Translations under genes and position numbers: made by a program
Shown here: one piece after another, positions 48,957-63,378 of the stretch
How positions within the stretch are numbered: position 1 is the stretch's first letter
Layout: each line of letters begins with the position of its first letter
Notes under the pieces: generated by a model
The model's database searches: none
Seen by the model: only the letters and a program-made list of their open reading frames with translations
What the model was told of the DNA's origin: nothing
Assembly: GCF_018138715.1 (NCBI RefSeq)
Contig: NZ_JAGSHX010000006.1
Location: forward strand, 8,556,001-8,620,000
Length of the DNA: 64,000 nucleotides
Direction: 5' to 3'
From: Streptomyces asiaticus
GTDB lineage: Bacteria; Actinomycetota; Actinomycetes; Streptomycetales; Streptomycetaceae

Positions 48957-49436
48957 CTATGCCGCCTCCCCCAGCTCCTCCCAGCGGTCGGCGAGCTCCT
49001 TCAGCTTGACGACGAACCGTTCGCGTTCCGCCTCGTCGAAGGACTCCAGGAGGATCTTGTCGAGCCTGCGCGCCCGGTGGTTCGCCTCCTGAAGGGCCTC
49101 TTTGCCCGCGTCGGTCAGGTAGAGCAGTTTGCGACGGCCGTCGGCGGCCGCGGTTTTCCGGGCGAGCAGCCCACGGTTCTCCAGCCGGCGAGCCACATCG
49201 GCCATGGTGGAGGTGTCCAGGGCGACGGCGGCAGCCATGGAACGCTGGTCCTGGCCGGGATGGGCCTCCACTGTCTGCAACACCGCGAACTGGGGGCCGG
49301 TGAGGACTGGGTCCACCTCCCGTGCCCACACGGCGAGATACGCCTGGTAGAGACGGCGGACCTGATAGCCGGGCGCGGCCGTCAGGGCAGTGGGGGCCTC
49401 CGGCCCGGTTGGGGCGGGCGGGGTGGGATCGGTCAT
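48957..49436 (-). CDS. MarR family transcriptional regulator of the nic-type operon
   Basis: A 159-residue MarR protein from ATG 49436: GYQVRRLYQAYLAVWAREVD, the winged helix MAAAVALDTSTMADVARRLE and the wing GLLARKTAAADGRRK. It is the last gene of an 11-gene minus-strand operon, 9 bp after the maleate isomerase stop, and is the obvious local regulator of the pathway. MarR-type repressors (PicR, NicR) control picolinate and nicotinate clusters elsewhere; ligand here would be a pathway intermediate. Confidence 0.88.
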   Translation of the reverse strand: MTDPTPPAPTGPEAPTALTAAPGYQVRRLYQAYLAVWAREVDPVLTGPQFAVLQTVEAHPGQDQRSMAAAVALDTSTMADVARRLENRGLLARKTAAADGRRKLLYLTDAGKEALQEANHRARRLDKILLESFDEAERERFVVKLKELADRWEELGEAA

Positions 49437-49445
49437 AGAACCTAC

Positions 49446-50264
49446 TTAAGCACGCACGGTTGACGCCGAGGGACATCGGGGGCGGACGCCGGCGCCGCTC
49501 CCGGCAGGGCCGGAGACCCGGCCGCCGAGCAGGCTCCCGGCGCCGGGCACGACGGGCGGCAGCCCGAGCTCCGTCAGAATGCGGAACGCGGTGGAGGTGG
49601 CCGCCGACAGTACGGGCAGCCCCGCCTCGTCCTCGACGGGCTGGATCGACGCCAGCGACGGCATCTGCACACAGGCCGACAGCACCAGCGCGTCGGCCCT
49701 GCCCAGGTTCAGGCGGCGCCAGTGGTCACGTAGATCGGCGGGGTCCAGACGGGCCACCGCCAGGTTGTCCGGAACTTCGAGGCTGAGCGCGTCGACGACC
49801 TCGATCCCGGCGTCCTCGATGTAGTCGGCCACCTTGGCGGTGAGCTCCTTCATATACGGCGTGATGATCGCGACTCGGCGGGCGCCGAGCGCCTCGACGC
49901 CGCTGAGCAGGGCGCCGGCGCTGGAGACCACGGGCGCCAGGGAGCCCTCGGACCGCAGTGCGGAGGTGATGTCGGCCTCCGCCACACAGTGGTGGCCCGG
50001 CCCCTGCGCCATGATGGCGACCAGGCAGGCGGTGGCGACGACGTCGGGCCGCGCGTCGGCCAGTTCGAGGGCGGCCCGCTCGGTCTGCGCGTTCATATTG
50101 CGCAGCTCGTCGGGGGTGACGTGCTTCATCCGCATCCGGCTGGTGTGGAAGACGAAGCGGTCGTCGGGCGCGATGGACGCCCGCGCGTCGAGCATCCGGG
50201 GGAGTTCGGTCTCCATCGTCAGGTTGGAGCTGGGCACGATCAGCCCGATGTGATGGTCTGCCAT
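49446..50264 (-). CDS. nicE: Maleate cis-trans isomerase (Asp/Glu racemase fold)
   Basis: ATG 50264 chosen with GGAGG nine bases upstream. The 272-residue enzyme has the two active-site cysteines of maleate isomerase: Cys80 in ATACLVAIM and Cys198 in LSACVQMPSL, matching Cys76/Cys194 of known enzymes. It converts maleate to fumarate, the last step of the nicotinate route. Arylmalonate decarboxylase-like enzymes share the fold but differ at these positions. Its place after the deformylase and amidohydrolase genes makes the assignment strong. Confidence 0.9.
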   Translation of the reverse strand: MADHHIGLIVPSSNLTMETELPRMLDARASIAPDDRFVFHTSRMRMKHVTPDELRNMNAQTERAALELADARPDVVATACLVAIMAQGPGHHCVAEADITSALRSEGSLAPVVSSAGALLSGVEALGARRVAIITPYMKELTAKVADYIEDAGIEVVDALSLEVPDNLAVARLDPADLRDHWRRLNLGRADALVLSACVQMPSLASIQPVEDEAGLPVLSAATSTAFRILTELGLPPVVPGAGSLLGGRVSGPAGSGAGVRPRCPSASTVRA

Positions 50265-50300
50265 GGGGTTGGTCCTCCGAAAGGGGGCGGCGGGCACCGG

Positions 50301-51152
50301 TCAGGCGGCCGGGGAGAGAACGGTCCGGAGCGCGTCGCGGAGCGCCGCGGTGGCGATCGCCGGGGCGTCCCAGAAGATCATGTGGCCGGCGCCGGGGATC
50401 TTGTGCAGCGGTGCGGTCGGATTGCTCTCGGCGGCCTCCCGCGCTCCTTCCGCCGTCACGACGGGGCTGTCGGCCCCGTAGAGCAGGTGGGCCGGTCCGG
50501 GCACCCGGGGCCACCAGTCGAAGAAGTCCTCGTACTCGAAGCCGTGGTGCGTGGCCACGATGGCCTCCTCGGCGCAACTGGACAGCCAGCGGGCCCGCAG
50601 TTCCTGTTCGCGCCGCGGCCAGGTGGGCCAGGAGGCGGCCACCTCGTCGGCGTCCGTACCGCGCCTGGCTTCGGAGAGTTGCCGCAGGAACACCTCCCGG
50701 GTGGTGGGGTAGGGGCCGCGATCCGGGCCGCTCAGCGGCGGATCGGCCAGCACGGTGCCGCGCAGGGGCACCTTGGCGCGCACCGCGACGGCCGCCGCGA
50801 TCCGCGCGCCCATCGAGTGGCCGAGGAGCAGCGGACGGTCGAGGCCGAGCTGGGTGATGAGGGCTTCGGTGTCCTCGGCGTACTCCGCCAGCCCGTAGCC
50901 GTCGCCCTCGTCCGAAAGTCCCCGGCCGCGTACGTCCAGCACCACCGGCCTGACCAGGTCGGTCAGTTCGCGTGCCACGAAGTCCATGGTGACCGCGGGA
51001 CTGGTGATACCGGGCAGGACGACCAGCGGCGGCAGGTCGCCGCCGTAGTCGAGGGCGTGCAGCCGTACCTCTCCGGAGCGCGCCCACCGGCTCGTGGCCG
51101 GCACATCGGCCAGATCGGCGAGCGCGCTCTGCTGGACCGAACGCCGTGTCAT
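50301..51152 (-). CDS. nicD: N-formylmaleamate deformylase-like alpha/beta hydrolase
   Basis: A 283-residue alpha/beta hydrolase with nucleophile Ser113 in LLGHSMGARIA, the oxyanion region VVLPGITS, VLDVRGRGLSDEG and catalytic His in PGAGHMIFWD. NicD removes formate from N-formylmaleamate to give maleamate. Many hydrolases look alike, so the position between maleamate amidohydrolase (4-bp ATGA overlap) and maleate isomerase carries most of the weight. Confidence 0.82.
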   Translation of the reverse strand: MTRRSVQQSALADLADVPATSRWARSGEVRLHALDYGGDLPPLVVLPGITSPAVTMDFVARELTDLVRPVVLDVRGRGLSDEGDGYGLAEYAEDTEALITQLGLDRPLLLGHSMGARIAAAVAVRAKVPLRGTVLADPPLSGPDRGPYPTTREVFLRQLSEARRGTDADEVAASWPTWPRREQELRARWLSSCAEEAIVATHHGFEYEDFFDWWPRVPGPAHLLYGADSPVVTAEGAREAAESNPTAPLHKIPGAGHMIFWDAPAIATAALRDALRTVLSPAA

Positions 51153-51856
51153 GTGCTGTCTCCTCGTCGGTGGGAACGCCGGGCCGCGTCAGGAGCCGCC
51201 GGGGCGGGAACGGAGCCGATGTAGCCGACGGCGTCCTCGAGGGTGACGACGTCGCCGTACTTGGCCTGGATGTCGAAGAGCGCCGCCTCCGCCGGGCCCT
51301 CGGCCCGGTCGCCCACGCAGGCACGGGGCACCAGCACCGGGAAGCCCGACTGGACGGCGTCGACCACGGTGGCCCGCACACAGCCGCTCGTGGTGGCGCC
51401 GCACACCACGACGGTGTCGCGGCCGAGACCGGTCAGGGTGGCGGCGAGACTCGTGCCGAAGAAGGCCGAGGCCCCCTTCTTCACCACCAGTTGATCGTGT
51501 CCCGGCCGCATGGGCAGCCGCGGGTCGATGGCCACGGCATCACTGCCCTCGACCAGGGCGCGCAGACCGGGGGCCTTGCGCAGCCAGGCGACCGCGTCAC
51601 CGGACGCCTCGGCCTCGGTGTATGCGATCGCGGTGAAGATCACTGGCACCTCCACCGGCCGGGCCGCCTCGATCAGGCGCGTGGTGGCGGCCACGACCTC
51701 GGAGAGGTCGGCACCCGAGGGGTACGAGTCCTCGGTGAAACCCCGGGTCAGGTCCACCACGACGATCGCCGGACGGCTGCCGCGCCGCACTTCGGCGCCG
51801 AAGCCGGCCCGCCGGTAGGTGCGGTTGGTGGTGACGCCGTACAGTCCGCCGCTCAT
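51149..51856 (-). CDS. nicF: Maleamate amidohydrolase (isochorismatase superfamily)
   Basis: A 235-residue cysteine hydrolase with a full catalytic triad: Asp35 (VVVDLTRGF), Lys127 (VVKKGASAFFG) and Cys159 (GATTSGCVRATVVDA). NicF converts maleamate to maleate and ammonia. Start overlaps the CoxG stop (ATGA) and stop overlaps the NicD start, so translation is coupled on both sides. In contrast with the triad-less relative at 23731-24435, this one is active by motif. Confidence 0.87.
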   Translation of the reverse strand: MSGGLYGVTTNRTYRRAGFGAEVRRGSRPAIVVVDLTRGFTEDSYPSGADLSEVVAATTRLIEAARPVEVPVIFTAIAYTEAEASGDAVAWLRKAPGLRALVEGSDAVAIDPRLPMRPGHDQLVVKKGASAFFGTSLAATLTGLGRDTVVVCGATTSGCVRATVVDAVQSGFPVLVPRACVGDRAEGPAEAALFDIQAKYGDVVTLEDAVGYIGSVPAPAAPDAARRSHRRGDST

Positions 51857-52494
51857 CGGCGCCTCCCCAGCAGCCAGCCCGGCACGAACCCGAGCAGGAA
51901 CGCGCCCGCGACCGGGCCGTACTTCTTCAGCAGCGGGCCCGCGATCAGCACCATTCCGTTGAGCTCACCGGGCGCTTCGGCGGGTGTGCCGGCCGCGGGA
52001 GCGGACGCGGCGGGCACCGCGCCGGAGACGGGGGACGCCTCCGCGCCGTCCTGCCGCAGGAGCAGGCCGCCGAGGTTCTGGGCGAACTGCTGGAGGATCC
52101 TGTCGGACACCGCCCCGATGGCTCCCTTGCCGAACTGGGCGATCTTGCCCCGGATCACCAGGTCGGTGGAGAGGTTCAGCTGGGCGCCGCCCTCGGCCGG
52201 GACGACCTCCAGGGAGACCTCGGCCTCGGCGTCGCCGCTGCCGTGGGTGTCGGCGCCGCTGGCGTGGACACGCAGCCTCCGCTTTTCCGCGTCGACCTCC
52301 AGGAAGCGCACGGTGCCGGCGTAGGCGGCCGTGATCGGGCCCACCTTGATCTTGACCGTGCCGCGCCAGGCATCGCCGTCACGGCCTTCGAGAGCGGCGC
52401 CGGGCATACAGGACGCCACTCTTTGGACGTCTTCGAGCAGCGCGAACACCGCGTCGGGCGCGGCCTGGACGGAGACGGTGTTGATCAGTTGCAT
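51853..52494 (-). CDS. CoxG-type SRPBCC protein
   Basis: ATG 52494 with GAGGAGG upstream. The 213-residue protein has a SRPBCC domain (MQLINTVSVQAAPDAVFALLEDVQRVASCMPGA in part; VKIKVGPITAAYAGTV) of the CoxG / carbon monoxide dehydrogenase subunit G family, then an Ala/Pro linker and a C-terminal hydrophobic segment (GPVAGAFLLGFVPGWLLGRR) ending in basic residues, suggesting membrane anchoring. CoxG anchors or matures Mo hydroxylases at the membrane. Sits between the iron-sulfur subunit gene and the amidohydrolase gene. Confidence 0.88.
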   Translation of the reverse strand: MQLINTVSVQAAPDAVFALLEDVQRVASCMPGAALEGRDGDAWRGTVKIKVGPITAAYAGTVRFLEVDAEKRRLRVHASGADTHGSGDAEAEVSLEVVPAEGGAQLNLSTDLVIRGKIAQFGKGAIGAVSDRILQQFAQNLGGLLLRQDGAEASPVSGAVPAASAPAAGTPAEAPGELNGMVLIAGPLLKKYGPVAGAFLLGFVPGWLLGRRR

Positions 52495-53024
52495 GATTCC
52501 TCCTCGGCGCCCATGGCCCGCTGGGAGCGCCGGGCGGTCGCGCAGGCGTCGATCGCCTCGACGATGGTCTGGTAGCCGGTGCACCGGCACAGGTTCGCGG
52601 CGACGACCTCCCGGATGTCCTCCTTGGTCGCCTCCGGCCGCTCCGCGAGGAAGCCCTGGGCCAGCATCAGGAAGCCGGGGGTGCAGAAGCCGCACTGTAG
52701 GCCGTGGTGGGCGGTGAAGGCCCGCTGGAGATCGCTGAGCTCGCCGGTGCCGGGGTCGGCGAGGGATTCGACGGTGGTGATCCGCGCACCCTCCGCCTGG
52801 GCGGCGAACATCAGACAGGCCCGGACCGGGAGCCCGTCGACGAGCACGGTGCAGGCTCCGCAGATCCCGTGCTCGCAGCCGACGTGGGTGCCGGTCAGCC
52901 GCAGATCGTGGCGGAGCACATCCACCAGGGTGCGGCGCGGTGCCGTGATCACCTCGTAGGACGTGCCGTTGACGTCGAGCGTGATGAGCTGGACGTCGTC
53001 GCCCAGGCCGGTGGTGTCGTTCAT
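52485..53024 (-). CDS. Mo hydroxylase small subunit, (2Fe-2S)2 protein
   Basis: ATG 53024 overlaps the large-subunit stop (ATGA). The 179-residue protein has a plant-type 2Fe-2S cluster (CEHGICGACTVLVDGLPVRAC) and a second four-helix cluster (CGFCTPGFLMLAQG ... NLCRCTGYQTIVEAI), the standard CoxS/XdhS layout. It passes electrons from the molybdenum centre to the FAD subunit. Overlaps CoxG by 10 bp. Confidence 0.93.
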   Translation of the reverse strand: MNDTTGLGDDVQLITLDVNGTSYEVITAPRRTLVDVLRHDLRLTGTHVGCEHGICGACTVLVDGLPVRACLMFAAQAEGARITTVESLADPGTGELSDLQRAFTAHHGLQCGFCTPGFLMLAQGFLAERPEATKEDIREVVAANLCRCTGYQTIVEAIDACATARRSQRAMGAEEESCN

Positions 53025-55393
53025 GGTGTCTGCTCCGGGGTGCGGGGGGTCAGTGCACGGTGGACCGTCTCCGGTGTGATGGGCGTGTTGTCCAGCTCGA
53101 CGCCGGTGGGCCGCAGCGCGTCGTTGACGGCGTTGAGTACGGCGGCGGGGGCCCCGATGGTGCCGCCCTCGCCGGCGCCCTTGGCGCCCGTCGCGGTGAA
53201 GGCGCACGGGGTCTCCAGATGGTGGATCACCACCTCCGGGATCTCCTGGGCGGTGGGCACCTTGTAGTCCATGAAGCTGGTGGCCGACGGCTCGCCCTGG
53301 GCGTCGTAGGTGATCTGCTCGAAGAGCGCCCCCGAGATGCCCTGGGCGATGCCGCCCCGGCACTGCCCCTCCACCACCTGCGGATTGACGGCGACACCGC
53401 AGTCCTCGACGCAGAAGTAGGCGAGGATTTCCACCTGCCCGGTGCCCTCGTGCAGTTCCACCACCACCCCGTGGGTGGCATTGGAGAAGGTGCCGTCGTT
53501 GTGGACGTCGAAGACGGCGGTGGCGGTGAGGCCCGGGTCGATGTCCTTGGGCAGCAGATGCGATGTGAGATAGGCGGTGTCGGCCAGGCGCTCGTAGCTG
53601 AGTGCGACATCCGGGTCGTCACGCCGGCGGACCCGGCCCCGGTCCAGTTCGGTGTCCTCCGGGGGGATGCCCCACTCGGCGGCGGCGATGGCGCGGAGCT
53701 TGTCGCCGAGCTTGGCCGCCGCCAGTCGTACGGCACTGCCGCCGACCGCGATCGAGCGGCTGGCGAAGGTGCCCCAGCCGTAGGTGATGCGGTCGGTGTC
53801 GCCCTGGTGGAGTTTGACCTTGGCGATGTCGAGGTGGAGCGTGTCGGCGACGATCTGCGCCATGGTCGTCTCATGGCTCTGCCCGTGGCTGATGGTGCCG
53901 GTGGTGGCGGTGACCGCGCCGCTGGTGTCCATGCGGACCTCGGCGAGGTCGAACCCGGGCACGACCTCCATCTTGCGCTGGGCGAAGGCGGCGGAGCCGT
54001 AGCCGGTGCGCTCGCTGAAGCAGCTGTAGCCGATCCCGATGTGCCTCCCCTCGGCCGTGGCCGCCGCCTGCCGGTCGTACCAGCCCGCCTCGCGCAGGGC
54101 CCGCTCGCACAGGTCGAGCGATTCCAGATAGGAGCCGGGGTCGTAGGTGATGTTGTTGACGCCGGTGTACGGGAAGTCGGTGATGACGTTGCGGCGCCGG
54201 ATCTCCACCGGGTCCAGGCGCAGTTCGCGGGCGGCGCGCTCCATGAGCCGCTCCATGGCCATGACGTACTGCGGGCGGCTCACACCCCGGTAGGGGGCGG
54301 TGGGCGCCTTGTTGGTGGTGATCGCCCGGCCGCGCACCCGGTAGGCCGGGACCTTGTAGACGCCGGGCATCTCGGCGGAGGCCATCAGCGGCTCGATACC
54401 GGCGGTGAACGGATAGCAGGAGTAGGCACCCATGTCGCACACCACGTCCGCGTCGAGACCGAGGATCCGGCCGTCGGCGTCGAAGGCGGCGCGTGCGGTG
54501 TAGTGCTGTTCCCGGGCGAGGAACGAGGCGGACAGGGCGTCCTTGCGGTCCTCGATCCACTTGACGGGCCGGCCGAGCCGCAGTGCGGCCGCCGCGGCGG
54601 CGATCTCCTCGCGGCCGACCACGCACTTGAGGCCGAAGCCGCCACCCATGTCCGGGACGATCACGCGCACCGCGCGCTCGTCCAGCCGCAGGCAGCGGGA
54701 GGCCACGGTCCGCACCTGGTGCGGGGTCTGGGTGCAGGCGTGCAGGACGAGCTGCTCCTCCCGGGCGTCCCACTGCGCCACCGCGCCACGCGTCTCCAGC
54801 GGCAGGGCGTTCTGGCGGCCGGTTCGCACATCGACGTGGACCACGCAGGGAGCCTGGTCGAAGATCTCGTCGATGCCCTCGGTGGCGAACAGGCCGACGT
54901 CGACCAGGGTGTTCCCGGCGGCCTCCGCGTGCACCCGCGGAGCGTCGGGGGCGAGGGCCTGTTCCTCACAGGTGATGGGCGGCAGGGGCGCGTACGTCAC
55001 CTTGGCGGCCTCCAGGCCGTCCTCGGCGAGGTAGGGGTCGCGGGCGACGACCACGGCGACGGGCTCGCCGACGTACCGGACCCGGTCGCGGGCGAGGACG
55101 GGCATGGCGGTCGGCACGAACTCCGAGAGCGGGCGGCCGAGTTGCGCGGTGATATCGCCCAGCTCCAGGTCGGCTGCGGTGAACGCGGCGACGACGCCCG
55201 GGACCTGACGCACCCGGGTCAGATCGATCTCGGTGATCGTCCCATGGGCGACCGTGCTGCGGACGAACTGCGCGTGCAGCATGCCGGGCAGCTCGATGTC
55301 GTCGACGAAACGGCCACGTCCGGACAGCAGCCGGGGGTCCTCGCGGCGCGCCACCGACCTGCCGACCAGCCGGTCGTCCTTGGCGGAGGTCAT
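53021..55393 (-). CDS. Molybdopterin-binding large subunit of an N-heterocycle hydroxylase
   Basis: A 790-residue xanthine-dehydrogenase-family large subunit beginning GRSVARREDPRLLSGRGRF. Mo-cofactor segments include IVPDMGGGFGLKCVVGREEI and the catalytic Glu block GAKGAGEGGTIGAPAAVLNA near the C-terminus. Together with the small and FAD subunits it should hydroxylate a ring carbon next to nitrogen, for example nicotinate at C6. It is transcribed after the FAD subunit (4-bp overlap). Not CO dehydrogenase by context: the characteristic CoxL Cys-loop is not evident here and the operon is catabolic. Confidence 0.88.
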   Translation of the reverse strand: MTSAKDDRLVGRSVARREDPRLLSGRGRFVDDIELPGMLHAQFVRSTVAHGTITEIDLTRVRQVPGVVAAFTAADLELGDITAQLGRPLSEFVPTAMPVLARDRVRYVGEPVAVVVARDPYLAEDGLEAAKVTYAPLPPITCEEQALAPDAPRVHAEAAGNTLVDVGLFATEGIDEIFDQAPCVVHVDVRTGRQNALPLETRGAVAQWDAREEQLVLHACTQTPHQVRTVASRCLRLDERAVRVIVPDMGGGFGLKCVVGREEIAAAAAALRLGRPVKWIEDRKDALSASFLAREQHYTARAAFDADGRILGLDADVVCDMGAYSCYPFTAGIEPLMASAEMPGVYKVPAYRVRGRAITTNKAPTAPYRGVSRPQYVMAMERLMERAARELRLDPVEIRRRNVITDFPYTGVNNITYDPGSYLESLDLCERALREAGWYDRQAAATAEGRHIGIGYSCFSERTGYGSAAFAQRKMEVVPGFDLAEVRMDTSGAVTATTGTISHGQSHETTMAQIVADTLHLDIAKVKLHQGDTDRITYGWGTFASRSIAVGGSAVRLAAAKLGDKLRAIAAAEWGIPPEDTELDRGRVRRRDDPDVALSYERLADTAYLTSHLLPKDIDPGLTATAVFDVHNDGTFSNATHGVVVELHEGTGQVEILAYFCVEDCGVAVNPQVVEGQCRGGIAQGISGALFEQITYDAQGEPSATSFMDYKVPTAQEIPEVVIHHLETPCAFTATGAKGAGEGGTIGAPAAVLNAVNDALRPTGVELDNTPITPETVHRALTPRTPEQTP

Positions 55394-56238
55394 CGTGACA
55401 TCGCCTCCTCACAGGCTCGCTCGATCAGATTGCGGATGAGGTGCTTGCGGTAGTCGCCGGTGCCGTTTGCGTCACTCGGTGGATCCACGGCGGAGGCCGC
55501 CGCCTCCGCGCAGTCCCGGAACGAGCCGCCGGCCGCCAGCACGGCCTCCGCCTCGGGCACCCGTACCGGCATCGCGGCGACACCGCCCAGCGCCACCCGG
55601 CCGCCGAGGACGTCCTCGCCCTCGGTGGCCAGATCGACCGCGGCGGAGACGATGGCGAAGTCCCCGCGACGCTCGGCGAACTCGGTGAGCGCCGCGTGCG
55701 GCGCGGGGCTGGGGAAGACGATCTCCACGAGGATCTCGTCGGGCTCCAGGGCGGTGGTGTAGTAACCGAAGAAGAACTCACCGGCCGGGATGCGCCGCCG
55801 CCCGCGCGGGCCGTGGGCGACGAACTCGGCGTCGAGCAGTACGGCCAGCAGACACCACTCGGCGGTCGAATCGGCGTGCGCGATACTGCCGCCCACGGTG
55901 CCGCGGGTCCGGATCGGCAGATGGCCGATCCACCGCATGGCCTCGCGGATGACCTCGAAACCCGCCCCGAGCCGGTCCGCGGACGCGGTCTCCACCGTGT
56001 GATGGGTGGTGAGCGCCCCAATGTGCAGCCCGCCGTCGGCCCCGACTCCGAGATGGTCGAGTTCGCGCAGGCCGGCGATGTCGACCAGATGCCCCGGGCG
56101 GGCCAGCCGGAAGTTCATCATCGCGACCAGGCTCTGGCCGCCGGCGATGACCTTGGCCTCGTCGGACAGTTCGGCCAGGAGTGCCGTGGCGCCCTCGACA
56201 TCGCGCGCCCGGTGGTACTGGAAGGGAGCGGGCTTCAT
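55390..56238 (-). CDS. Mo hydroxylase FAD-binding medium subunit
   Basis: A 282-residue protein with FAD-binding AGGQSLVAMMNFRLARP and RGTVGGSIAHADSTAEW, the CoxM/XdhM pattern. It transfers electrons from the Fe-S clusters to an acceptor. Its presence differs from Pseudomonas NicAB, in which a cytochrome-bearing subunit replaces FAD. Overlaps the large subunit start by four bases. Confidence 0.92.
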   Translation of the reverse strand: MKPAPFQYHRARDVEGATALLAELSDEAKVIAGGQSLVAMMNFRLARPGHLVDIAGLRELDHLGVGADGGLHIGALTTHHTVETASADRLGAGFEVIREAMRWIGHLPIRTRGTVGGSIAHADSTAEWCLLAVLLDAEFVAHGPRGRRRIPAGEFFFGYYTTALEPDEILVEIVFPSPAPHAALTEFAERRGDFAIVSAAVDLATEGEDVLGGRVALGGVAAMPVRVPEAEAVLAAGGSFRDCAEAAASAVDPPSDANGTGDYRKHLIRNLIERACEEAMSR

Positions 56239-56296
56239 GTTTCTCCTGTCGTTTTCGAAGGCCGCCCCGGACAGTCCGGTCGGGGCGGCCTGCGCT

Positions 56297-57700
56297 TCAG
56301 CGCACCGGCTGACCGACGGCCGGCTCCGGGGACGCCTGGGCGGGCACCGCGGTCGGATCGTCCTCGTCGAGGTCGCGTCCCTTGGTCTCGGGCGCCGCGA
56401 ACGCCGTCCAGACGACGGCCCCCAGGACGGCCACGGCCAGTACCCCGAACGTCATCGGCAACCCCAGCAGCGGCCACATCACCGAGCCGAACAGCATCGG
56501 GGCGAAGCCGGTGAGCACGCGGCTGAACGAGGACGCCCAGCCGAAGCCGCTGGCCCGCAGCGTTGTCGGGTACAGCTCGGAGACGTAGGCGTACATGGCG
56601 GGGATGGTCAGCTGCATCAGGAAGCCGAAGACGCCGATGGCCACGACGGAACCCGTCGGCATGCGCATCACCAGCGCGAACACCACCAGTGCGAGCGAGG
56701 CGACCGGGGCCGAGACCCCTATGAGCCACTTCCGGCCGACCGCGTCCACCAGCACCGTGGAGGTCAGGACGCCGACGATGCCGACCGCGCTCATCAGCGT
56801 GGTGCTCATGAAGGCGGCCGTGTCGCCGAGGCCCTCCTCCTTGAGAATGGACGGCAGCCAGCTCAGGGCCGCGTAGTACACCAGCATGACGGTGGCGAAC
56901 AGCAGCCAGGCGGCGGAGGTGATACGCGGGCTGAACTTCCAGACCGCGCGCAGCTGTTCGAGCGCGGCGCGGGGACCGTTCCCCCCGGACTCGTGCACCG
57001 GGGCGGGTATGACGTACGGCTCGGCAGGCGCACCCGTGCGGGCGACCAGATCGTCGATGACGGCCCGCGCCTCGACCTCCCTGCCCTTCCTGCTGAGGTA
57101 GACCGGCGACTCCGGCACACCCCTTCGCACCCAGAACAGCAGCAGCGCCGGAACGCTCATCACGCAGAGCATCCACCGCCAGTTGCCTTCGAGGGAGAGC
57201 ATGGCCGTCGAGACGAGACCGCACAGGGTCACGCCGATCGGCCACCAGGCGTCCAGCGCGGTCAGTACGCGTCCGCGGTACTTCGTCGGGGAGAACTCCG
57301 CCACCAGGGCGTAGTCGACGGGAATACAGCCGCCCAGTCCGACACCCGCGATGAAGCGCAGGGCGAGGAAGATCCCGTAGTTCGGGGCCAGGGCACCGGC
57401 GACCGAGAACAGCGCGAAGATCAGCAGGGTGACGCTGAAGGCCTTCTTGCGTCCGATGCGGTCGGCGATCGCGCCCCAGGCCACCGCGCCCACGGCCATG
57501 CCGACCAGATTGGCGGTGGCCACCAGACCTCGCTGGGAGAGTGAGAGGTGGAAGTGGTCGCCCAACAGCGGCATCAGAAAGCCGTTGAGGGCGATGTCAT
57601 AGGCGTCGAAGAGGTAGCCGAGGCCGCCGATGATGAAGATCCTGCCCTGGACTCCCCATCTCCATGGGAGGTCCTGGACGATGTGGTCGCCTGTTTTCAC
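56297..57700 (-). CDS. MFS transporter, aromatic/N-heterocyclic acid importer
   Basis: GTG 57700 chosen with GTGGAG upstream; longer open frames lack support. The 467-residue protein has twelve hydrophobic segments, the MFS loop motif GAIADRIGRKKAFS between helices 2 and 3, and sugar/acid-symporter-like DYALVAEFSPTKYRGRV. It resembles the aromatic acid:H+ symporters and NicT. Inside the operon, between the flavin monooxygenase and the Mo hydroxylase, it is the likely importer of the pathway substrate. Confidence 0.88.
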   Translation of the reverse strand: MKTGDHIVQDLPWRWGVQGRIFIIGGLGYLFDAYDIALNGFLMPLLGDHFHLSLSQRGLVATANLVGMAVGAVAWGAIADRIGRKKAFSVTLLIFALFSVAGALAPNYGIFLALRFIAGVGLGGCIPVDYALVAEFSPTKYRGRVLTALDAWWPIGVTLCGLVSTAMLSLEGNWRWMLCVMSVPALLLFWVRRGVPESPVYLSRKGREVEARAVIDDLVARTGAPAEPYVIPAPVHESGGNGPRAALEQLRAVWKFSPRITSAAWLLFATVMLVYYAALSWLPSILKEEGLGDTAAFMSTTLMSAVGIVGVLTSTVLVDAVGRKWLIGVSAPVASLALVVFALVMRMPTGSVVAIGVFGFLMQLTIPAMYAYVSELYPTTLRASGFGWASSFSRVLTGFAPMLFGSVMWPLLGLPMTFGVLAVAVLGAVVWTAFAAPETKGRDLDEDDPTAVPAQASPEPAVGQPVR

Positions 57701-57825
57701 TGTCGCTCCACGGGGTGTTCGGGGATGTGCCCGCGCGGGGCGACACCGAGGTGGATGAGCGGGAAGTGGCCCCGGAGGGGTCGAGGGATGAGCGGAGGGG
57801 GAGGGGAGGGGCGGGGAGGGGCCGG

Positions 57826-59097
57826 TCAGCGGGCGAAGCGGTAGTCGAAGGCGCCCAGGTCCGGGTCCTCGAGGGGGCTGCCGCTCCACAACCAGTGGTA
57901 GGAGACGTCGGATTCGCCGTCGAAGCCGCGCCGCAGCAGGGCGTCCCTGGCCTCCTGCTGGGGGCCGTCGGGGTAGTGGTAGAAGGTCTTGTTCTGTAGT
58001 GAGGCGTCCTGGACCATGCCGGCGTGCTTGGCTCGCCGGTCCACATAGCGCCGCAGCGCGCCCTCGACGCCGTCGGCGGTTATCCGGCCCAGTTCCTCGG
58101 CCAGTACGGCGGCGTCCTCCATGGCCTGGGAGGCACCCTGGGCCTGGTAGGGCAGCATGGCGTGGCAGGCGTCGCCCAGGAGGGCCACCCGGCCGTCCAT
58201 CCAGACCGGGTCGCGCCGGCGGTGGTAGAGGGCGAAGGAGAGCACGTCCTCCTTGGCCTTGGACAGCATCGCCGCCGCCCGGTCGTCCCAGCCCTGGTAG
58301 GCGTTCACCAGGTCTTCCGCGGTGGCCGAGCCGGTCCATTTCTCGGCGACCTCGTCCGTGCACGGGACGCAGCCGACGACGTTGAGGTACTCGCCGCCGC
58401 GGATCATGTAGTGCACCAGGTGCCGGTCGGGGCCGTACCAGATGGTGCTCTGGAAGCGGTCCATCAAGAAGCGCGTGGCCGGGTCGGCGGCGATGAGGTC
58501 GCCGGGGATGAGGACCCGGAAGGCCATCTCGCCGGAGAACAGCAGGGTGTCGGGGAGGCCCATGAGGTCGCGGACCCGGGAACGGATGCCGTCGGCGCCG
58601 ATCAGCACATCGGCTTCGAAGCGCCGGCCGTCCTCGGTCACGGCCGCGGGGCGGCGGGGGTCGCTCCGGTCCAGTTCGCCGACCCGGCTCGAGGTGTGCA
58701 GCGCGACCACCGGGCCGGGGCCGGCCGGGTCGACGCAGGCATCGGTGAGGACACCGTGCAGATCGGCCCGGTGGTAGTGCCAGTACGGCGCGTTGTAGTG
58801 CTGCTTGACGTAGTCACCGAGCTGGGTCAGGCCGATGATGCTGCCGTCCTTCCACCGGCGCCGCACCTGGTCCAGGGGCTCGGTGCGGATGGCCTCCAGT
58901 TGCCTGCGCAGCCCCAGCCCGAGCAGGACCCGGCTGGCGTTGGGCGCTGTCTGGATGCCCGCGCCGATCTCGCCGAACTGCGGTGCCTGCTCCAGTACGG
59001 TCACCTGATGGCCGCGCTGCCGCAGCGACAGCGCGGCGGTCATTCCGCCGAGCCCGCCGCCGACGATGACGACGTCGAGGGATTGGGTGGATGCCAT
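57826..59097 (-). CDS. FAD-dependent hydroxylase of the nic-type operon
   Basis: ATG 59097 with GGAGAG upstream. The 423-residue flavoprotein shows VIVGGGLGGMTAALSLRQRG, the DG motif (GADGIRSRVRD) and GDACHAMLPYQAQGASQAMED. By context it should take the place of NicC (6-hydroxynicotinate 3-monooxygenase), which hydroxylates and decarboxylates to 2,5-dihydroxypyridine. However, Pseudomonas NicC has a conserved His in AGIH, whereas this protein has Gln49 in GAGIQTAPN, as in 3-hydroxybenzoate-6-hydroxylase relatives. The substrate therefore remains open. A 125-bp gap separates it from the MFS gene. Confidence 0.85.
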   Translation of the reverse strand: MASTQSLDVVIVGGGLGGMTAALSLRQRGHQVTVLEQAPQFGEIGAGIQTAPNASRVLLGLGLRRQLEAIRTEPLDQVRRRWKDGSIIGLTQLGDYVKQHYNAPYWHYHRADLHGVLTDACVDPAGPGPVVALHTSSRVGELDRSDPRRPAAVTEDGRRFEADVLIGADGIRSRVRDLMGLPDTLLFSGEMAFRVLIPGDLIAADPATRFLMDRFQSTIWYGPDRHLVHYMIRGGEYLNVVGCVPCTDEVAEKWTGSATAEDLVNAYQGWDDRAAAMLSKAKEDVLSFALYHRRRDPVWMDGRVALLGDACHAMLPYQAQGASQAMEDAAVLAEELGRITADGVEGALRRYVDRRAKHAGMVQDASLQNKTFYHYPDGPQQEARDALLRRGFDGESDVSYHWLWSGSPLEDPDLGAFDYRFAR

Positions 59098-59128
59098 GTT
59101 CTCTCCAGATGCGGGTGCGGCGGCGGGA

Positions 59129-60160
59129 TCAGAAGTCGACGAGCCGGCCCGCGGTGACGACCTCCTGGTCGTCGACGGAGACGGTGCAGCCGCGCATGGC
59201 GATGTCGACGTGCGCATACGATTCGCGCTCGAGTACGGGGTGGGGTCCGGTGGACCACAGGAAGTTTCCGGCGAACGCCCGCGCGTCCATGCCCATTAGC
59301 TCTTCCTTGCCGTACAGGGCGGTGGCGAACCAGTCGGCGGTGCGCATCAGACCCCAGCCCATATGGGACAGGCTGCGCCCCCATTCGTCGTTCGCGTCGT
59401 CGAAGAAGGTGTTCAGCAAATGGGCCTCGGCGCCACCGGACACCTTCTCGATGTTCCCGCCCGCGATCTCCAGAGTGACCGGCTGGCGTACGTACTCCTT
59501 GAACGGCAGCAGGATGTCGCCCTCGGAGAGCACGATCCGGCCCTCGGAGAACCGCGGCCAGCACAGGACCATGGTGCTCGGCCAGTGGTCCCAGCGGCCC
59601 GGGTCGTCGGCGAAGCCCACCTGGAACTCCGGCTTGGAGCCCGGCAGTTCGACGGTCAGGTCGGTGCCGGCCTCGGAGGTCACCCGCATGACGGACGCGC
59701 TCTTCAGCAGGTTGACGCCCTTGAGCACCTCCGCCTTGTCCTCCGGCTTGGGGAGATTGCGGATGAGTACGTCGGGGGCGTCGCACACGAAGAGGATGCG
59801 GGTGCCCGTCCGCATGATCTCCTGCTGGAGCGGGGCGTGGATGAAGCCCTCCCGCGTGAGGTCCACGACGAGGTCGGCGGCCTTGAGCAGGTTCTGCGCG
59901 GCGGTGTCGCCGAGCACCGCGCTCAGGCCGGGTCCGGCACCGGTGCGGGTGCTGTCCGAAGGCGACGGGTTGCCGCCGGGGACCGTGGCGGCGATGACGT
60001 GCGCGCCGCAGGCCTTGGCGGCGCCGAAGGCGGCCGCCACGTAGTCGCCGCGGCTGGTGGGCTCGGACAGGACGACGACGTGCTCATCGGGCTTGAGCTT
60101 GCACAGCTTCAGCTCCTGGGTGAACGCCTCGAGCAGGTCAACGGAGGTGAGGTCGAGCAT
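59129..60160 (-). CDS. nicX: 2,5-dihydroxypyridine 5,6-dioxygenase (NicX family)
   Basis: ATG 60160 with AGGAG upstream. The 343-residue enzyme has an M29-aminopeptidase-like fold and the Fe(II) triad of NicX: His266 (SLSHMGWG), His317 and Asp319 (YAHVDIAM), the same positions as His265/His318/Asp320 in the Pseudomonas enzyme. It opens 2,5-dihydroxypyridine to N-formylmaleamate. It is the first gene of the 11-gene operon, and 731 bp of apparently non-coding DNA lies upstream as its likely promoter region. Confidence 0.92.
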   Translation of the reverse strand: MLDLTSVDLLEAFTQELKLCKLKPDEHVVVLSEPTSRGDYVAAAFGAAKACGAHVIAATVPGGNPSPSDSTRTGAGPGLSAVLGDTAAQNLLKAADLVVDLTREGFIHAPLQQEIMRTGTRILFVCDAPDVLIRNLPKPEDKAEVLKGVNLLKSASVMRVTSEAGTDLTVELPGSKPEFQVGFADDPGRWDHWPSTMVLCWPRFSEGRIVLSEGDILLPFKEYVRQPVTLEIAGGNIEKVSGGAEAHLLNTFFDDANDEWGRSLSHMGWGLMRTADWFATALYGKEELMGMDARAFAGNFLWSTGPHPVLERESYAHVDIAMRGCTVSVDDQEVVTAGRLVDF

Positions 60161-60599
60161 GTCTCGCTCCTGGGGGAGGGGAAGGTGGCAGACGGCGATC
60201 GCATGGTCCGGGCAGGCGTAGAGGGTATGGATCCAGCCATGCGGCCAGGTGGCTTCATGGGGAGACGCGGGTCTCACGGGCGCCGCCGACGAATTAATCC
60301 GAACGCGTACGATCTGGGTTTGGCAAGGGGTACGGCCGAACTATTTTGTGATCAGTCCGCCTCCCGGGGTGGTCGCGACGGGCAGGGCACCCCCGCTGAC
60401 CTCGCATTTTCCCTAGGTGTCGGCCGTCTTTCCCGGCTTCACGAAGATGAACGAAAGATGATCGTGGCTGGCATGAAGCCTTGCGCCGAGAGTTCGTACG
60501 TGCTCGGATGGTTTCTGTTCACATCCGGAACTGCGTGCCCTGAGCTGCCTCGCGATGGCTGGTTCTCAGCGGCACGCGCCGCCGCCAAGGAGGGCTCCG

Positions 60600-60891: not shown

Positions 60892-61407
60892 TCAGTCGCC
60901 GGTGACGCCGTCGATCCGCTCGCGGATGAGGTCGGCGTGGCCGTTGTGGCGGGCGTACTCCTCGATCATGTGCAGGTAGATCCAGCGCAGGTTGTAGTCC
61001 CCGCGGCCGGGACGGCTGGCCACATCGTCCAGGGAGCGGCCCGCGGCGGCCTCCTTGGCCTTGGCGATCTCCTCCCGCCAGATGGCGAAGGCGGTCTCCG
61101 AGGTGTCCTCGTCGGTGAGGTGGAACTCCCCGTCCGGGTCCTCCTCGCTGTACCAGATCGGCGCTATGTCCTGCCGGTCGAGCACCCGCCGGAACCAGCT
61201 CCGCTCGACCTCGGCCATATGCCGTACCAGGCCGAGCAGGGTCAGCCCGGACGGCGGCGCCGACGCCTCGCGCAGCTGCTTGTCGTCCAGGCCCTCGCAC
61301 TTGAGGGCGAGGGTCGCGCGGTGGAAGTCCAGCCACCCCTCCAGGCTGGTGCGTTCATCGGCGGTCCGGGGCGGGTCGGGGCGTTCTGTGATCGTCATGG
61401 CGGTCAT
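60892..61407 (-). CDS. DinB-like/DUF664 family protein
   Basis: A 171-residue protein beginning MTAMTITERPDPPRT (ATG 61407, or ATG 61398). DUF664 features are ERTSLEGWLDFHRATL, LVRHMAEVERSWFRRVL and LRWIYLHMIEEYARHNGHAD. The four-helix DinB/YfiT-like fold binds a divalent metal through three histidines, two of which (HMAEVERSW and EYARHNGH) are visible. Actinobacterial members include mycothiol-dependent enzymes. It ends at the hairpin region upstream of nicX. Confidence 0.85.
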   Translation of the reverse strand: MTAMTITERPDPPRTADERTSLEGWLDFHRATLALKCEGLDDKQLREASAPPSGLTLLGLVRHMAEVERSWFRRVLDRQDIAPIWYSEEDPDGEFHLTDEDTSETAFAIWREEIAKAKEAAAGRSLDDVASRPGRGDYNLRWIYLHMIEEYARHNGHADLIRERIDGVTGD

Positions 61408-61438
61408 GATGAGGCGCCGCCCTCATGACCGCCACGCG

Positions 61439-62092
61439 TTATTCGTCCAGCATCCCGCGCAGCAGCTCCTCGAACCCGGTGCGCAGCGCCGCGCGGTCGG
61501 GTACGGCGTCGTGGTCGGCGCCCGCGGCGCAGCTGAACATCAGCCCCTCGCACCAGGCGACCAGTGACCGCGCGTGCCGCCGGGGCTCGGTGGAGCCCAG
61601 CGCCGTCATCATCGCCTCGAGTGGCTCCCGGAAGCCGCGCCCCGTGGCGTCGTAGAACTCCCGCAGCTCAGGGCGGCGGGTCGCCTCCAGCGCGAGCTCG
61701 TAGCGGGCGATCAGCAGATCGCGCTGGGTGGTGAGTGAGCGGTGCAGGGCCAGCGCGAGCGCGTCGGCCGGCCCCGCGACCGGATCGGTTCCCTTCGGCG
61801 CCGCGCCGGCGGGGCCCGGCATCTCGTCGGGCGCCAGCACCTCCGCCTCCCGCTGGGCCAGCCGCCGGACCGCGGCCTTGAGCAGGGCGGCGCGGGTCCG
61901 GGCGTGGTTGGAGGTCGAGCCGAGCGGCAGCCCGGCCGCCTCGTCCACCGCGCGGTGCGTCAGCCCCCGCATCCCGCGCTCGGCCAGCAGCGTCAGCGCG
62001 GTATCGGCGATCAGCTCGGCGCGGGACGCGCCGGACGCGGAGGCGGACGGGGCGGCGCCGGAAGCGGAAGCGGCGGTTCGATCAGCGGTCAT
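61439..62092 (-). CDS. TetR family regulator
   Basis: A 217-residue protein with an Ala/Ser-rich N-terminus, helix-turn-helix SRAELIADTALTLLAERGMR / TSNHARTRAALLKAAV and an all-helical ligand domain (EALMMTALGSTEPRRHARS in close form). It diverges from an FAD monooxygenase over 86 bp that holds two operator-like palindromes, so it probably represses that enzyme and itself. Confidence 0.9.
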   Translation of the reverse strand: MTADRTAASASGAAPSASASGASRAELIADTALTLLAERGMRGLTHRAVDEAAGLPLGSTSNHARTRAALLKAAVRRLAQREAEVLAPDEMPGPAGAAPKGTDPVAGPADALALALHRSLTTQRDLLIARYELALEATRRPELREFYDATGRGFREPLEAMMTALGSTEPRRHARSLVAWCEGLMFSCAAGADHDAVPDRAALRTGFEELLRGMLDE

Positions 62093-62121
62093 GGGGCCAA
62101 CCTAAGCCCATCCGTCACGCG

Positions 62122-62164
62122 TACTACGGGTGTAGTAACGTAAGTGAGTACTACACCTGTAGTT
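62122..62164. promoter_or_regulatory. Two TetR operators upstream of FAD monooxygenase
   Basis: TACTAC-GGGT-GTAGTA (62122-62137, perfect) and TACTAC-ACCT-GTAGTT (62149-62164, one mismatch), spaced 27 bp centre to centre. A GGAGG Shine-Dalgarno for the monooxygenase follows at 62170. Confidence 0.75.
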
Positions 62165-62178
62165 GGTCTGGAGGAGTC

Positions 62179-63378
62179 ATGCAGCAGCCCCGTGCCGTCG
62201 TCATCGGTGCCGGAGTCGGCGGGCTCACCGCCGCCGCGGCCCTGCACCGCCGCGGCTGGTCCATCACCGTCCTGGAGCGGGCCGCCCGCCTCGAGCCGGT
62301 CGGCGCCGGAATCTCCCTCGCCGCCAACTCCCAGCGCGCCCTGGACGCCATCGATCTCGGCGACGACGTGCGCGCGCTCGCCGCCTGGCAGGGCGGCGGC
62401 GGACTGCGCACCCCCGGCGGCCGCTGGCTCTCCCGGATGGACAGCGCCACCATGGCCGAGCGCTTCGGCGGCCCGCTGGTCCTCCTCCACCGGGCCACCC
62501 TCGTCGATCTGCTCGTCTCCCGGCTGCCCCAGGGCGCGGTCCGCACCGGGACCGCCGCCCGGCTGGCCGACCCCGGCGCCGCCGACCGCCCGGCCCGGGT
62601 CACCACCGAGGACGGCGACCACGAGGCGGACCTCGTCATCGGCGCCGACGGCATCGACTCGGCCGTCCGCCGCGCGCTCTTCCCGGACCACCCCGGGCCC
62701 CGCTACGCCGGATTCACCACCTGGCGTGTCGTCATCCCCGCCCCCGACCGGCCGTTCGAGCCGCACGAGACCTGGGGGAGGGGCCGGATCTGGGGCACCC
62801 AGCCGCTCAAGGACGGCCGGGTCTACGCCTACGCGGCGGCCGTCGCCCCGCCCGGCGGCCGGGCCCCGGACGACGAGCGGTCCGCACTGCTGCGGCTCTA
62901 CGGCGACTGGCACCGGCCCGTCCCCGACGTCCTCGCCGCCGTCGCGCCCCCGGACGTGCTGCGCCATGACATCCGGTACATGGCCGAGCCGCTGCCCGCC
63001 TACCACCGGGGCCGGGTCGCCCTCCTCGGCGACGCCGCCCATGCGATGGCCCCCACGATGGGGCAGGGCGGCAACCAGGCCATCGAGGACGCCGTCGTCC
63101 TCGCCCACCAGCTGGCCCCCGGCATCGCCGACCCCTCCGCCGCACTGGCCGCCTACACCCGCGACCGGCTGCCCCGCACCATGGACGTGGTGCGCCGCTC
63201 GGCGCGCACCGCCCGCATGATCACCCTCACCAGTGCCCCCGCCGTCGCCCTGCGCGACGCCGCGATCGCCGCCGTCGGTCGCCTCGCCCCCGGTCTCGCC
63301 CTCCGCTCCTTCGACGGCATCGCCGACTGGTCTCCGCCCACCTCCACGTATCCTGCGGGGGCACAGCGGAAGGCGTGA
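62179..63378 (+). CDS. FAD-dependent monooxygenase
   Basis: A 399-residue flavoprotein with VVIGAGVGGLTAAAALHRRG, the DG motif (GADGIDSAVRRALF), and the late GDAAHAMAPTMGQGGNQAIED. It is single-domain, of the PHBH/salicylate hydroxylase class. Repressed by the divergent TetR by inference; substrate unknown. It is followed 23 bp later by a Gfo/Idh/MocA oxidoreductase on the same strand. Confidence 0.9.
   Translation: MQQPRAVVIGAGVGGLTAAAALHRRGWSITVLERAARLEPVGAGISLAANSQRALDAIDLGDDVRALAAWQGGGGLRTPGGRWLSRMDSATMAERFGGPLVLLHRATLVDLLVSRLPQGAVRTGTAARLADPGAADRPARVTTEDGDHEADLVIGADGIDSAVRRALFPDHPGPRYAGFTTWRVVIPAPDRPFEPHETWGRGRIWGTQPLKDGRVYAYAAAVAPPGGRAPDDERSALLRLYGDWHRPVPDVLAAVAPPDVLRHDIRYMAEPLPAYHRGRVALLGDAAHAMAPTMGQGGNQAIEDAVVLAHQLAPGIADPSAALAAYTRDRLPRTMDVVRRSARTARMITLTSAPAVALRDAAIAAVGRLAPGLALRSFDGIADWSPPTSTYPAGAQRKA

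Follow-up and report, generated by a model that had tools for sequence, protein, structure and literature searches.

A 64,000-nt stretch of the Streptomyces asiaticus genome (assembly GCF_018138715.1, contig NZ_JAGSHX010000006.1, positions 8,556,001 to 8,620,000 of the forward strand), hereafter the window, harbors eleven genes, all on the minus strand and spanning positions 60160 to 48957, in which enzymes of pyridine ring cleavage are combined with a molybdenum (Mo) hydroxylase of the CoxLMS type. The locus raises the question of which compound is degraded and by which enzymes that compound enters the pathway. We propose, with a probability of about 0.75, that the genes form an operon that is inducible and serves to degrade nicotinate aerobically; nicotinate, the substrate to which the gene content points, would be converted to 6-hydroxynicotinate, then to 2,5-dihydroxypyridine and finally to fumarate. 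A sequence-only reading of the window had described a pathway from nicotinate or a similar pyridine to fumarate, and the route via 2,5-dihydroxypyridine is borne out by the ring-cleavage half, which matches enzymes of solved structure, from Pseudomonas or otherwise characterised, with the catalytic letters kept.

Predicted Enzymes From 2,5-Dihydroxypyridine to Fumarate

The first gene, nicX (59129–60160), encodes a protein of 343 amino acids (aa) assigned as a 2,5-dihydroxypyridine 5,6-dioxygenase. The protein showed a match of 253 bits to Pseudomonas putida NicX (7cn3), the sole solved match at an E-value of 0.001. Residues H266, H317, and D319, which we take to be the iron-binding residues, were invariant among 11 relatives and aligned with identical letters of P. 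putida NicX. The predicted N-formylmaleamate deformylase (NicD/Nfo type; 50301–51152) matched 4l0c, named "Deformylase", at 146 bits, the next match being at 59 bits; its serine is kept in the motif GHSMGAR, which reads GHAMGAR in chain 4l0c. The predicted maleamate amidohydrolase (NicF/Ami type; 51149–51856) matched 4l07 at 208 bits, and the cysteine of its motif TTSGCVRAT is also found in 4l07, chain 4l08 having alanine at this place. The predicted maleate cis-trans isomerase (49446–50264 with the chosen ATG start; a GTG lies at 50297) matched 4fq7 at 255 bits and contains both cysteine motifs, ACLVAIM and SACVQMPS, the cysteine of the second being present in 4fq7 and replaced by alanine in chain 4fq5. 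The components of a maleamate pathway, i.e., a dioxygenase with the H/H/D site and a deformylase, an amidase, and an isomerase with their nucleophiles, were thus all found, and the catalytic residues earlier reported for NicX and the maleate isomerase are indeed in place. The four assignments are as firm as sequence can make them. Ring opening by NicX would yield N-formylmaleamate, which the deformylase would convert to maleamate and formate, the amidase to maleate and ammonia, and the isomerase to fumarate.

In this half, the operon is comparable to the nic cluster of P. putida KT2440, which has NicX, the deformylase, the amidase, and the isomerase and presumably the same chemistry from nicotinate to fumarate. 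Among the nic loci of Pseudomonas, mostly, and other Proteobacteria (L062–L099), the best matches showed 38–45% identity for the amidase, 36–42% for the deformylase, and 49–54% for the isomerase, and NicX identity was 41–44%, except for 57% in Nonomuraea (L079). In contrast, the gene order of the proteobacterial loci is different, and identity was 32–36% for the monooxygenase, 35–40% for the iron–sulphur (Fe–S) subunit, and 22–25% for CoxL where at least half of its length aligns.

Genetic Organization of the Operon

The genes are arranged in the transcript order nicX, flavin monooxygenase, major facilitator superfamily (MFS) transporter, coxM, coxL, coxS, coxG, amidase, deformylase, maleate isomerase, and marR, with intergenic gaps of 31, 125, 58, −4, −4, −10, −4, −4, 36, and 9 nt, respectively, when computed with the chosen starts. 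All the genes that had been placed in a one-strand operon at 48957–60160 were found, with correct coordinates; the ATGA overlaps ascribed to the operon exist at four of the ten junctions and do not extend throughout. As the order recurs, with small changes, in other genera, the arrangement is not due to chance, and the eleven-gene Streptomyces operon is real and conserved. The description of the pathway as complete holds for the catabolic steps, but none of the eleven genes codes for a Mo-cofactor chaperone such as XdhC. The genome around the window is 11.9 Mb in size. The closest named NicX match, in a search that may omit records of the own genome, was from Streptomyces iranensis (98%), where the other genes, as far as the isomerase, show 85–98% identity.

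The Flavin Monooxygenase and the Choice of Substrate

The second gene (57826–59097) encodes a flavin adenine dinucleotide (FAD) monooxygenase of 423 aa, for which solved relatives, active site, trees, and a structural model were considered. It is proposed to be a decarboxylating 6-hydroxynicotinate 3-monooxygenase, which would hydroxylate and decarboxylate its substrate at C3 to give 2,5-dihydroxypyridine. The best solved relatives by sequence were 8x38, 8gsm, and 8r2t, with NicC being weaker (E-value 2e-50); the names of the nearest ones are decarboxylative vanillate 1-hydroxylase, 4-hydroxybenzoate decarboxylase, and 4-hydroxybenzoate 1-hydroxylase. The model showed 33–35% identity to the three in structural alignment, and its residues Q49, H226, Y230, and Y317 are shared with 8x38 and 8gsm. 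These enzymes differ in acting on benzoates and not pyridines, and 8r2t and 8x38 are fungal. Hydroxylases of the 4-hydroxybenzoate/vanillate 1-type act para to the hydroxyl group, as 6-hydroxynicotinate would need. Two of the five letters of what we take to be the NicC active-site list (H47, C202, H211, Y215, and H302) are kept in the window protein, which has Q49, S217, H226, Y230, and Y317 at these places; the NicC list itself agrees in all five letters with P. putida NicC as encoded in L098. This mismatch lowers the likelihood that the monooxygenase is NicC and leaves untouched the view that it may work like NicC. In a tree rebuilt without the second monooxygenase of the window, a very long branch in the first tree, the protein was grouped with the 4-hydroxybenzoate/vanillate enzymes (support 90/78), and an alternative clade with NicC was not rejected by the approximately unbiased test (p-AU 0.169). 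On its sequence, the monooxygenase is not clearly NicC, a point that the sequence-only reading had missed, as it had the conserved site upstream of nicX.

The differing active-site letters would also suit an operon for another pyridine degraded via 2,5-dihydroxypyridine, be it a different 3-substituted pyridine, 5-hydroxypicolinate, or 2-hydroxypyridine. NicX-type enzymes do serve other pyridine routes, an example being HpdF for 2-hydroxypyridine in the portion of the source available (PMC7356986), and NicX relatives occur in loci with no match to the monooxygenase of the window (L055–L058). Against this stand the entry genes. A 3-carboxypyridine needs exactly a Mo hydroxylase and a monooxygenase of the decarboxylating type, whereas the Mo hydroxylase would be superfluous for 5-hydroxypicolinate and the decarboxylation for 2-hydroxypyridine; moreover, the match to HspB, the succinoylpyridine enzyme, was far weaker than that to NicC (7e-8 vs. 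2e-50). A substrate other than nicotinate is, on balance, unlikely.

The shared residues Q49, H226, Y230, and Y317 and the tree grouping could further suggest that the monooxygenase acts on a benzoate, as a 4-hydroxybenzoate or vanillate 1-hydroxylase outside the pyridine route. This was addressed through the linkage of its gene with nicX, which was tested by monooxygenase-led searches only, because the other loci had mostly been retrieved with NicX. In a draw of 199 genomes of the genus, NicX was found in 11 (E-values up to 1e-60) and the monooxygenase in the same 11 (up to 1e-100), and the two genes are neighbours in ten of these (L009–L018). The eleventh genome, G092, carries an unlinked NicX match of 43% identity as well as a NicX of 36% identity located about 5 kb from the monooxygenase gene in the same cluster. 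Draws from the class (394 genomes) and the family (200 genomes), at E-values up to 1e-130, added ten genomes with the monooxygenase, and in every one of them the surrounding stretch contains nicX or its 36% type. Hence, in each of the 21 genomes that the monooxygenase retrieved (11, the own genome among them, plus the ten added), its cluster also contains nicX or the 36%-identity type. Such clustering argues against a benzoate as substrate, as do the clade with NicC that was not rejected and the fact that, without the monooxygenase, no operon gene would be left for the step from 6-hydroxynicotinate to 2,5-dihydroxypyridine; a role outside the pyridine route is highly improbable.

The Molybdenum Hydroxylase

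Hydroxylation of nicotinate at C6, with water as the oxygen source, would be carried out by the CoxLMS proteins, judging from homology. These comprise a coxM-type FAD subunit (55390–56238; FAD_binding_5 and CO_deh_flav_C), a coxL-type Mo subunit of 790 aa proposed to be the catalytic subunit of a nicotinate 6-hydroxylase (53021–55393), and a coxS-type Fe–S subunit (52485–53024; Fer2 and Fer2_2), with computed masses of 29.8, 85.1, and 19.1 kDa, respectively. The best solved relative of CoxL was quinoline 2-oxidoreductase (1t3q, 546 bits), ahead of two CO dehydrogenases (462 bits for Mycobacterium smegmatis CoxL and 427 bits for the second). The CoxL loop reads APYRGVSR, compared with VAYACSFR in 8uem and VAYRCSFR in 1ffu; the cysteine motif of CO dehydrogenases is therefore absent. 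All 13 NCBIfam scores, including those of both CO dehydrogenase families, were under the cut-off. By these sequence features, CoxL is no CO dehydrogenase and most resembles an N-heteroaromatic hydroxylase, and nicotinate C6 is its presumed site of hydroxylation. Quinoline 2-oxidoreductase (1t3q_B) is likewise an N-heteroaromatic hydroxylase that, from its name, acts beside the ring nitrogen, but its substrate is bicyclic and the downstream pathway is different.

In the genus draw, CoxL (E-values up to 1e-200) was found in nine of the 11 genomes with NicX and the monooxygenase and in no other of the 199. Among 42 loci with a monooxygenase of at least 65% identity, 35 have at least 7.5 kb of sequence downstream, a count that leaves out the repeats L102, L109, and L111, the locus L103, whose contig ends after the monooxygenase, and the short L009–L019; most of the loci were retrieved by NicX similarity. 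In 32 of the 35, coxM, coxL, and coxS are present, all 32 with coxG, and the remaining three (L027, L061, and L100) have neither coxMLS nor coxG, L100 having a different Mo hydroxylase. That CoxLMS and CoxG are a CO dehydrogenase sitting in the operon by chance, as the subunit make-up and the resemblance of CoxG to its M. smegmatis counterpart might suggest, is scarcely credible and was rejected, given the APYRGVSR loop, the higher score to 1t3q, the scores under both NCBIfam cut-offs, and the restriction of CoxL in the genus draw to genomes with nicX and the monooxygenase.

An enzyme of the NicAB type would have a NicB-type large subunit, presumably carrying a cytochrome c part, and no FAD subunit. 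The operon instead has an 85 kDa CoxL with a separate FAD subunit and CoxG, and the low identity of CoxL to the large subunits of the nic loci agrees with the earlier view that a CoxLMS-type hydroxylase with CoxG stands in the place of NicAB. As a departure from the known pathway, this layout is qualified by precedents. According to the accessible part of one source, Bacillus sp. DSM 2923 has a nicotinate dehydrogenase made up of three subunits of 20, 34, and 85 kDa (PMC10331938), similar in mass to the 19.1, 29.8, and 85.1 kDa computed here; that part mentions no CoxG.

CoxG and Its Possible Role in Electron Transfer

The product of coxG (51853–52494) consists of a START-like domain followed by a linker and a C-terminal hydrophobic helix. 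It matched the COXG Pfam family and M. smegmatis CoxG (8uds_D, 105 bits), and its model (mean predicted local distance difference test score, pLDDT, of 72) superposed on 8uds with a template modelling score of 0.92 by target length and 40% identity. The COXG domain and the C-terminal membrane segment characteristic of such proteins were both found; the linker is of low confidence and the helix was likewise modelled at low confidence (pLDDT about 45–56), its sequence being partly conserved among relatives. In these features the system resembles the CO dehydrogenase of M. smegmatis, which has CoxLMS-type subunits and CoxG, but differs from it in the missing cysteine motif of CoxL. In the excerpts available, CoxG is reported to bind quinone and to connect with CO dehydrogenase in this way (PMC13240472), but to be no more than an anchor in an archaeal enzyme (PMC11962113), and it stands beside pyridine-type Mo hydroxylases in the Ensifer 3-hydroxypyridine dehydrogenase (cited in PMC11962113) and on plasmid pAO1 (PMC6214936). 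Electrons from the window enzyme would exit via the FAD subunit, and CoxG would anchor the enzyme at the membrane; whether it also passes the electrons on to menaquinone we consider evenly balanced.

Putative Transporter and Regulation

The MFS protein (56297–57700 with the chosen GTG start; MFS_1 and Sugar_tr) is proposed to import nicotinate. Its best NCBIfam match was TIGR00895 (aromatic acid/H+ symport) with 240 bits, under the cut-off of 418.55. The last gene (48957–49436) encodes a MarR-type regulator (MarR Pfam 40.4 bits, cut-off 24.6), which might bind a conserved site upstream of nicX and keep the operon repressed until it is released by a compound of the pathway. The candidate operator lies at 60286–60318 on the minus strand, with its core at 60295–60311, 135–151 nt before the ATG. 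It was derived by aligning four close relatives, and a looser 11-letter core was then scored in other loci. The consensus, GAGATAGTACGTGTTCGGATTATCTC, is symmetric at 18 of 26 letters, compared with 10 of 26 in the window copy. A possible second, weaker copy with three mismatches to AGTACGTGYTCGGATTA is present in the same intergenic region (60495–60511, plus strand). The exact 17-letter pattern was matched in eight of 112 loci, each at about the same position upstream of nicX. At least 10 letters of the 11-letter core were found in 32 of 39 nicX upstream regions (all 11 in 29), as against 14 of 3671 random 500-nt windows (all 11 in eight), a background that leaves out most nicX upstream regions, since an earlier one could include true sites. 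In the own genome, matches with up to three mismatches numbered six, compared with 10 when the control, a reversed pattern, was used; the best (two mismatches) and one of the other five (three mismatches) lie beside nicX, and matches with three mismatches also occur elsewhere at the control level.

The site and marR tend to occur together. All 22 marR-bearing loci among the 39 regions have the site, and the seven site-less regions have no marR in the sequenced stretch. Ten site-bearing regions are without marR; most of these stretches end early, and in L020 a marR of 98.6% identity runs off the end of the locus. Two observations weigh against a MarR operator: L045 has the site and shows no marR, which short sequence does not explain, and five more distant marR-bearing loci have no site. 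Among nine loci outside the derivation, the site was found in L103, L105, L110, and L112 and not in L100, L104, L106, L107, and L108. On this sequence evidence, we somewhat favor the conserved site as a candidate MarR operator. No perfect 7-nt palindrome upstream of nicX was shared among the 12 of 37 regions listed, and scans for sigma-70 promoters and terminators gave counts at chance level.

Variant Clusters and Relation to Known Pathways

The kind of pathway is already known; the novelty is that of a variant, in its entry enzymes and their presumed coupling to CoxG. Literature searches, which covered few subscription journals and in which most matches were judged from listings, turned up no comparable nicotinate operon from an actinobacterium. 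If correct, the proposal would place the catabolism of vitamin B3 (nicotinate) in soil actinobacteria, would show CoxG doing for a catabolic hydroxylase what it is proposed to do in CO oxidation, and offers a testable function for genes often annotated as "hypothetical protein" (NicX relatives) or "FAD-dependent monooxygenase".

Several relatives show a different set of genes around the monooxygenase. L026 (4471–10463) and L027 (2979–16520) contain nicX, the monooxygenase, the amidase, the deformylase, and marR, without coxMLS, coxG, and the MFS gene, and in both a divergent VanA-type Rieske oxygenase gene adjoins the cluster. In L027, genes for ferredoxin and ferredoxin reductase are nearby, and downstream lies a homologue, at 86% identity, of an S-(hydroxymethyl)mycothiol dehydrogenase encoded in L061 (TIGR03451, 692 bits, cut-off 513), a place before which L026 ends. 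L061 itself, with this dehydrogenase, has no VanA match. The sequences of the VanA-type and mycothiol-linked variants suggest demethylation of a methylated pyridine as a feed. In L100 (1386–9863, genome G092), the same monooxygenase is accompanied by a 926-aa fused Fe–S/Mo subunit, XdhC, and the 36%-identity NicX, a type that recurs at 78–79% in L105–L108 together with ordinary coxMLSG. The variants would fit one common compound entering at the monooxygenase. A tentative scenario, which we hold somewhat less probable than its contrary, is that Actinobacteria built their own nicotinate route from a quinoline-oxidoreductase-type hydroxylase, a dedicated CoxG that hands its electrons to menaquinone, and, in the place of NicC, a monooxygenase taken from among the 4-hydroxybenzoate hydroxylases of the decarboxylating kind. 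The monooxygenase would then be a fixed gateway with an exchangeable supply of 6-hydroxynicotinate, through coxMLS–coxG, through the fused Fe–S/Mo hydroxylase of L100, or, in L027 and partly in L026 and L061, through a Rieske demethylase of the VanA type combined with formaldehyde oxidation that depends on mycothiol.

Other NicX-containing clusters were also observed. In Rhodococcus and Gordonia (L047, 7259–9133; L048; L049; and L051), a formamidase gene (NF009803/PRK13287 in L047, 499 bits, cut-off 406) and a flavin-reductase-like gene are located upstream of nicX, and these stretches contain no match to the amidase, deformylase, or isomerase; N-formylmaleamate may be hydrolyzed differently there. 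A second NicX-type cluster of G092 (L101, 4212–14633), which encodes the 43% NicX together with homologues of the amidase and the isomerase, two short-chain dehydrogenases/reductases, a Rieske ring hydroxylase, and a NuoF-like protein, is probably another pyridine route. Streptomyces sp. AJS327 has two NicX clusters in its genome, one without coxMLSG (L061) and one with it (L031). The own genome gave nine matches to the MoCoBD_1 family and therefore has several further Mo hydroxylases. Just upstream of the operon (60892–63378 of the window) lie a mycothiol-S-transferase family gene, a TetR regulator gene, and the second FAD monooxygenase gene.

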